Assembly (NCBI RefSeq): GCF_009906795.1
Contig: NZ_JAAALN010000002.1
Span: 1 to 64,000 of the forward strand
Length of the DNA stretch: 64,000 bases
DNA from: Kineococcus siccus
GTDB lineage: Bacteria; Actinomycetota; Actinomycetes; Actinomycetales; Kineococcaceae
Direction of reading: 5' to 3'
The notes below the pieces were generated by a model. That model worked only from the letters and a program-made list of their open reading frames with translations. It searched no databases and was not told where the DNA came from. This document shows positions 48,430 to 53,910 of the stretch, piece after piece. Each line of letters begins with the position of its first letter. The stretch's first letter is position 1. A program made the position numbers and the translations under genes.

Positions 48430-48437
48430 CGCCCTCC

Positions 48438-48480
48438 GGCACCGCCCGTCCCCCGCTGCGTGCGGGGGACGGGCGGTGCC
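48438..48480 (+). terminator. rpoBC terminator
   Basis: GGCACCGCCCGTCCCCCGC and GCGGGGGACGGGCGGTGCC form a perfect 19-bp stem with a TGCGT loop, starting eight bases after the rpoC stop. No T-run. It is the longest perfect hairpin in the window. Confidence 0.9.
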
Positions 48481-48511
48481 GCGGTGGGGGAGAGGGTGGC
48501 CACGAGCCGTT

Positions 48512-48540
48512 TTGACCCTCCCCAGCCCAGCGGGTAGATT
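48512..48540 (+). promoter_or_regulatory. Promoter of the str operon (rpsL-rpsG-fusA-tuf)
   Basis: TTGACC (48512-48517), a 17-bp spacer and TAGATT (48535-48540): the closest match in the window to the consensus vegetative promoter. It produces a leader of about 163 nt. Confidence 0.85.
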
Positions 48541-48607: not shown

Positions 48608-48635
48608 GAACGACACGCCCGACCTCGTGGGTCGG
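48608..48635 (+). promoter_or_regulatory. 28-nt leader element shared with the rpsJ leader (str-operon copy)
   Basis: The segment starts GAACGACACGCCCGACC and ends GGGTCGG; 27 of 28 bases are identical to 53509-53536 in the S10-operon leader, the single difference being T48628 versus G53529. CCGACC and GGTCGG form a 6-bp stem with a five-base loop inside it. It lies 74 nt upstream of the rpsL start. An identity of this length in two non-coding leaders is hard to explain without selection. Confidence 0.7.
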
Positions 48636-48709: not shown

Positions 48710-49084
48710 GTGCCCACCATCCAGCAGCTGGTCCGCAAGGGCCGGGAGGACAAGGTCGTCAAGACCAAGACCCCCGCTCTCAAGGGCAGCCCCCAGCGCC
48801 GCGGTGTCTGCACCCGCGTGTACACCACGACGCCGAAGAAGCCGAACTCCGCGCTCCGCAAGGTGGCGCGCGTGAAGCTCACGAGCGGCATCGAGGTCAC
48901 GGCCTACATCCCGGGCGTCGGCCACAACCTCCAGGAGCACTCGATGGTCCTGGTCCGCGGCGGACGTGTGAAGGACCTCCCCGGGGTCCGGTACAAGATC
49001 GTCCGCGGTTCGCTCGACACGCAGGGTGTCAAGAACCGCAAGCAGGCGCGCAGCCGCTACGGCGCGAAGAAGGAGAAGAGCTGA
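48710..49084 (+). CDS. rpsL: 30S ribosomal protein S12
   Basis: A 124-residue S12: [48 protein letters not shown], and [13 protein letters not shown]. Both lysines whose change gives streptomycin resistance (in TPKKPNS and in RVKDLPG) are wild type. Lies at the decoding centre. GTG start with GGAGACAGG upstream. First gene of the str operon; its stop overlaps the rpsG start by one base. Confidence 0.98.
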
Positions 49085-53508: not shown

Positions 53509-53550
53509 GAACGACACGCCCGACCTCGGGGGTCGGAGCCCCGAGGCTCC
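53509..53550 (+). promoter_or_regulatory. S10-operon leader: shared 28-nt element with mutually exclusive hairpins
   Basis: 53509-53536 repeats the rpsL-leader element with one change. Hairpin A pairs CCGACC (53520-53525) with GGTCGG (53531-53536). Hairpin B pairs CCTCGGGG (53524-53531) with CCCCGAGG (53539-53546). A third stem CGGAGCC (53535-53541) with GGCTCCG is compatible with A only after minor adjustment. A and B share bases and cannot form together, which is the layout of an attenuator or protein-controlled switch. Confidence 0.6.
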
Positions 53551-53601: not shown

Positions 53602-53910
53602 ATGGCGGGACAGAAGATCCGCATCCGGCTCAAGGCCTACGACCACGAGGTCATCGACAGCTCGGCGCGCAAGATCGTCGACACGGTGACCCGTACCGGC
53701 GCTTCGGTCGCCGGGCCTGTGCCGCTGCCGACGGAGAAGAACGTCTACTGCGTGATCCGCTCGCCGCACAAGTACAAGGACAGCCGCGAGCACTTCGAGA
53801 TGCGCACGCACAAGCGCCTCATCGACATCATCGACCCCACGCCGAAGACGGTCGACTCGCTCATGCGACTCGACCTCCCCGCGGGTGTCGACATCGAGAT
53901 CAAGCTCTGA
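53602..53910 (+). CDS. rpsJ: 30S ribosomal protein S10
   Basis: A 102-residue S10 (NusE), which also takes part in antitermination and can bind Nus[80 protein letters not shown] start. First gene of the S10 operon after a leader of about 325 nt. Confidence 0.98.

Follow-up and report, generated by a model that had tools for sequence, protein, structure and literature searches.

A sharply bounded 25-nucleotide sequence shared by the str and S10 operon leaders of Actinomycetes, probably a WhiA-type operator

The leaders of the str and S10 ribosomal protein operons of Kineococcus siccus share a 28-base sequence. The signal is genuine, has sharp bounds and is conserved throughout the class Actinomycetes. 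We suggest that the 25 bp conserved within the shared sequence are probably a bipartite WhiA-type operator on DNA. This reading is the best supported because the GACACRCC core matches the published motif, the ChIP peak of WhiA at rpsJ fits its position, and the genome has a gene for a complete WhiA. As a WhiA site, the rpsJ copy is essentially known; that WhiA also binds the str copy is what we infer from its sequence.

In the window (the whole stretch of 64,000 nucleotides that was analysed), the str copy at 48608-48635 and the S10 copy at 53509-53536 are identical at 27 of 28 bases, the sole difference being T at 48627 against G at 53528. Both carry the arms CCGACC/GGTCGG (48619-48624/48630-48635 in str and 53520-53525/53531-53536 in S10), which bears out the identity and the stem on which the original prediction was built. 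The copies end 74 nt and 65 nt before the start codons of rpsL and rpsJ, respectively. No further copy with three or fewer mismatches occurs in the whole 4.58-Mb genome, and the number of chance matches to the 28-nt sequence expected from dinucleotide-preserving shuffles of the window is 0.00. The two operons had been described as unlinked, but they are adjacent: the gene order is rpsL, rpsG, fusA, tuf and then rpsJ, the S10 operon follows directly after the str operon, and the copies lie 4.9 kb apart. In relatives, the two operons are often close enough to resemble one super-operon.

Table 1. Positions in the window of the two copies of the element, their parts, and the neighbouring genes and predicted promoter.
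Feature	Coordinates	Strand	Basis
str copy of the 25-nt element, CGACACGCCCGACCTCGTGGGTCGG	48611..48635	+	sequence; bounds from conservation profile
WhiA core motif GAYACRCY, str copy, GACACGCC	48612..48619	+	sequence compared with PMC11701221, PMC3781837
Conserved 3' half, str copy, CGTGGGTCGG; candidate auxiliary motif	48626..48635	+	conservation
S10 copy of the 25-nt element, CGACACGCCCGACCTCGGGGGTCGG	53512..53536	+	sequence
WhiA core motif, S10 copy, GACACGCC	53513..53520	+	sequence compared with PMC11701221, PMC3781837
Conserved 3' half, S10 copy, CGGGGGTCGG	53527..53536	+	conservation profile
rpsL (S12), first gene of the str operon, GTG start	48710..49084	+	
rpsJ (S10), first gene of the S10 operon	53602..53910	+	
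Predicted sigma-70-type str promoter, TTGACC-N17-TAGATT	48512..48540	+	0.0 expected; same type before rpsL class-wide

The conserved unit, CGACACRCCCGACCNCGKGGGTCGG, is 25 nt long and, across the class, precedes rpsL, rpsJ or both by 34-199 nt, so that the search for copies in the leaders of related species, proposed at the outset as a check, found them class-wide. At both genes, the information profile rises abruptly over 25 conserved positions and is near random on either side, and the element carries 41 bits at rpsL and 47 bits at rpsJ. Counting the first C as position 0, the letters vary at position 6 (R, G/A), 14 (N) and 17 (K, G/T); at position 6, all variants have G or A except two that bear T. 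The 5' half GACACRCC is nearly invariant in relatives; the 3' half never varies at its first C, G and the G that follows K, and its other positions are variable in rpsL copies. A scan of GTDB genomes with GACACGCCCGACCNNNNGGGTCGG returned at least 120 matching stretches. Among the matches listed, which come from organisms including Streptomyces, Micromonospora, Nocardioides, Arthrobacter, Brevibacterium, Frankia, Nocardiopsis and Mycobacteroides, rpsJ or rpsL directly follows in all assignable stretches but one; the exception is a Hymenobacter stretch with neither gene, and two stretches were too short to assign. To these, 80 more rpsL regions of the class were added, and both leaders were obtained in many genomes. 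In 59 relatives, the bipartite pattern mostly has one or two sites, with pairs ~4.7-4.9 kb apart, and the reversed control pattern matched two of the same genomes, once each; most congeners have exactly two sites at this spacing. A third match to the bipartite core in the genome of the window (L268:1501-1520; G000:C451:28177-28196), ~50 nt before a Ski2-like helicase gene, is absent in ten congeners and is probably a chance match rather than a real operator.

The placement of the element follows the heads of transcription units. Among the 65 genomes in which a single piece carries rpsL, tuf and rpsJ, it stands before rpsL alone in 32, before both genes in 26 and before rpsJ alone in seven, and none lacks it at both. 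The rpsJ copy is present in all 29 genomes in which the gap between tuf and rpsJ exceeds 330 nt and in 4 of the 36 with a shorter gap (Fisher p=2e-14, uncorrected for relatedness and with the 330-nt cut-off chosen after seeing the data). This dependence on the gap is what membership of the element in the unit head would predict.

The predicted promoter upstream of the str copy (Table 1) supports the original description of this copy as part of an untranslated leader; with a predicted start at ~48547, the copy would lie ~60 nt into the transcript. For the S10 operon, no promoter of the TTGACC type was found in the window. Across the class, 85 promoters of the form TTGACC-17/18-TANNNT precede rpsL elements, where shuffles give 16.6, and most of their predicted starts come 45-200 nt before the element. 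Before rpsJ there are 42 promoters (15.3 in shuffles), whose second hexamer is often CATACT and whose predicted starts precede the element by ~110-190 nt. The rpsL promoters are strikingly uniform across the class, and those of rpsJ have a -35 of the TTGGCC type with CATACT. Because the predicted promoters lie upstream of it, at variable distance class-wide, the element seems to be inside the transcribed leader, without the overlap of the -35 box found in Mollicutes. Just after rpoC, the window also holds a perfect 20-bp inverted repeat with a 5-nt spacer (48437-48481), which is terminator-like and has no T run.

The 5' half of the element matches the WhiA core GAYACRCY, degenerate purine included, which is bound by the HTH domain of WhiA and precedes rpsJ in several phyla (Fisunov et al. 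2024, PMC11701221). In M. gallisepticum, WhiA is an ATP-sensing repressor, and its LAGLIDADG-like domain contacts a clade-specific auxiliary motif downstream of the core (PMC11701221). In S. venezuelae, the WhiA footprint motif is GACAC, rpsJ is a ChIP target with a peak 75 bp before the start codon, and rpsJ expression falls when whiA is mutated (Bush et al. 2013, PMC3781837). Published WhiA occupancy at rpsJ comes from S. venezuelae only, and MEME at the WhiA targets of this species gave nothing beyond GACAC (PMC3781837). In Streptomyces-type rpsJ leaders, all from organisms other than S. venezuelae, a median of 76.5 bp separates the centre of the element from the start codon. The genome of the window encodes one complete WhiA (G000:C484), with the Pfam domains WhiA_N, LAGLIDADG_WhiA and HTH_WhiA and a match to the WhiA chains of PDB 8dy7/8dy9 at E=1e-159. 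Because whiA is near-universal in the class (157 of 158 genomes, the exception G488 being a draft of ~190 contigs), its co-occurrence with the element inside the class is uninformative.

The system of Fisunov et al. (PMC11701221) has the same core, the same gene rpsJ and a conserved downstream part, and Actinobacteria are among the groups listed there. Its auxiliary motif is -35-like in Firmicutes and Mollicutes, whereas the 3' half here is CGKGGGTCGG and the predicted promoters lie upstream; moreover, there is a second copy on the str operon here, whereas rpsL has no occurrence in the main text of that paper. By the predicted promoters, the element does not carry a -35-overlapping auxiliary motif of the Firmicutes/Mollicutes type. 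As auxiliary motifs are clade-specific (PMC11701221), this excludes that subtype but not the WhiA operator family. The WhiA/WhiB sites of S. venezuelae (PMC3781837; Bush et al. 2016, PMC4850268) have GACAC and the rpsJ target in common with the element, but consist of GACAC alone in either orientation, whereas the element spans 25 bp; the main text of the S. venezuelae ChIP paper makes no mention of rpsL.

Outside the class, intergenic GAYACRCY at rpsJ was found at one site in 32 whiA-bearing genomes, sampled at about one genome per family, and the motif was absent from all 40 rpsL leaders taken from two other classes. A possible exception is a rpsJ leader of family f48 (L337, G119), in which GACACGCC and then CGCGGGGG stand ~105 nt upstream of the gene; judged by its letters, this might be a diverged copy of the element. 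The rpsL matches of a related class (G153:C142, G077:C1, G054:C4) each have one in-frame TAG, probably from a match running past the stop codon near the gene end.

The WhiA reading has to be weighed on both sides. It gains from the presence of at least one copy in 65 of 65 genomes, one at each unit head, from the two sites at a fixed spacing in most congeners, and from the conservation of letters and not of pairing. Against it, known sites need GACAC alone; the site is downstream of predicted promoters, unlike the Mollicute and Firmicute sites with their -35-like auxiliary part; the core is absent at rpsJ and rpsL in most genomes of other classes of the phylum although many have whiA; and the extended 25-bp motif has not been reported at other WhiA targets. 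It is the leader position, the 25-bp extent and the missing core in other classes that leave an appreciable, if clearly smaller, chance that the element is a site for another factor, be it some other protein that binds DNA, or a small RNA or RNA-binding protein acting on an unstructured leader, with the overlap with GACAC partly coincidental. The 41-47 sharply bounded bits exceed what the WhiA HTH domain needs, but the core and its degenerate purine fit the WhiA consensus, and the ChIP peak falls on this core.

The original prediction proposed an RNA element or protein-binding site that co-regulates both operons. A shared site, probably co-regulating, has held up, and the protein-binding half of the guess fits best, albeit on DNA and with the WhiA core as its invariant part; a stem-defined RNA has not. 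A structured RNA, in which the CCGACC/GGTCGG hairpin of both leaders would bind a ribosomal protein, a processing enzyme or an elongation factor, is in our view unlikely. It would agree with a position inside the predicted leader, with the sense orientation of all collected copies (the sense strand being the one searched) and with a hairpin that is intact in most rpsJ copies. However, all six pairs are complete in only 14 of 56 distinct rpsL variants, where the 3' arm alone is changed 73 times, the 5' arm alone 18 times and both arms 5 times, two of the latter still pairing. Compensatory changes, suggested as a check, did not rise above shuffles (covariation score 0.056 vs 0.060, every measure being near the shuffled mean), and in most rpsL variants the stem is lost uncompensated. 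The alternative hairpin CCCG/CGGG is broken in all variants with K17=T and never covaries, K17=T shows no link with an intact CCGACC/GGTCGG hairpin (Fisher p=0.36), and neither hairpin forms in 7 of the 56 variants. Folding z-scores of the window copies, taken as single strands, are an unremarkable -0.9 and -1.2, and Rfam, searched up to E=10, has nothing that matches the element. Given the lack of covariation, the unremarkable folding and the lack of an Rfam match, it is the primary sequence and not pairing that is under selection, read probably on DNA and less probably as single-stranded RNA. Rfam offers no named RNA family that fits, but a described element, the WhiA core at rpsJ, does match. 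Two of the outcomes named at the outset as counting against the original prediction have thus turned up in part, the lack of covariation and the match to a described element, while the str copy is absent from the main texts of the WhiA papers. Known leader RNAs (Eckert and Weinberg 2020, PMC7247131; the Peptostreptococcaceae rpsJ motif, PMC11109978) likewise reside in the leaders of ribosomal protein operons, but have covarying structure and usually one lineage-specific ligand, whereas the element has no such structure; the 25-nt element was not found listed in either paper.

It is less probable still that the element serves WhiA/WhiB-type activation of a second, proximal promoter (P2) whose -35 region would lie in the 3' half. 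Streptomyces rpsL leaders do keep TTAGCTT ~38 nt after the element start, by which GACAC would precede a -35, but there is no class-wide -10 enrichment at that position and none at rpsJ. Chance or a recent local duplication without function, which the distance of just 4.9 kb between the copies might suggest, is refuted by the class-wide conservation between near-random flanks at both sites and by an expectation of 0.00. In Streptomyces rpsL leaders (e.g. L039, L054, L068), CCAGGTTAGCTT is kept downstream of the element and might be a second promoter at the level of the genus.

Returning to the WhiA-type operator, we propose that the HTH domain of WhiA would dock on GACACRCC, while the 3' half CGKGGGTCGG might be read more loosely by the LAGLIDADG-like domain or by a partner such as WhiB. 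With an operator at the head of every str/S10 transcription unit, occupancy that changes with growth, energy or division state may alter transcription of both operons together, and the regulator would thereby tie rpsL-rpsG-fusA-tuf and the S10 operon to that state. Bound 60-190 nt past the predicted start, it could either impede or assist the polymerase. As to the sign of regulation, analogy suggests activation as in S. venezuelae or repression as in Mycoplasma: the sole actinobacterial data point to net activation (PMC3781837), and the Mollicute data to repression (PMC11701221).

The str copy, the 25-bp bipartite consensus, the rule of one copy per unit head and the position 60-190 nt downstream of predicted promoters appear to be new. 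None of them was found in the literature searched, where the str site may stand in supplements; no paper was found for the literal 13-mer, and titles and abstracts on WhiA together with rpsL yielded nothing on this site. To our knowledge, control of the main ribosomal protein operons in Actinomycetes such as Streptomyces, mycobacteria and corynebacteria is poorly understood, and WhiA in actinobacteria has so far been viewed mainly as a regulator of division and sporulation. A site so conserved on both operons offers a defined target for tests. We put forward, as a tentative proposal that is possible but far from assured, that it may be a class-wide Actinomycete control element, one per str-S10 unit head, read over its full 25 bp inside the leader by WhiA or by WhiA and WhiB, such that a division regulator would directly set S12, S7, EF-G, EF-Tu and the S10 operon from the transcribed region and not from the promoter. 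If this is true, ribosome supply would be linked to WhiA.
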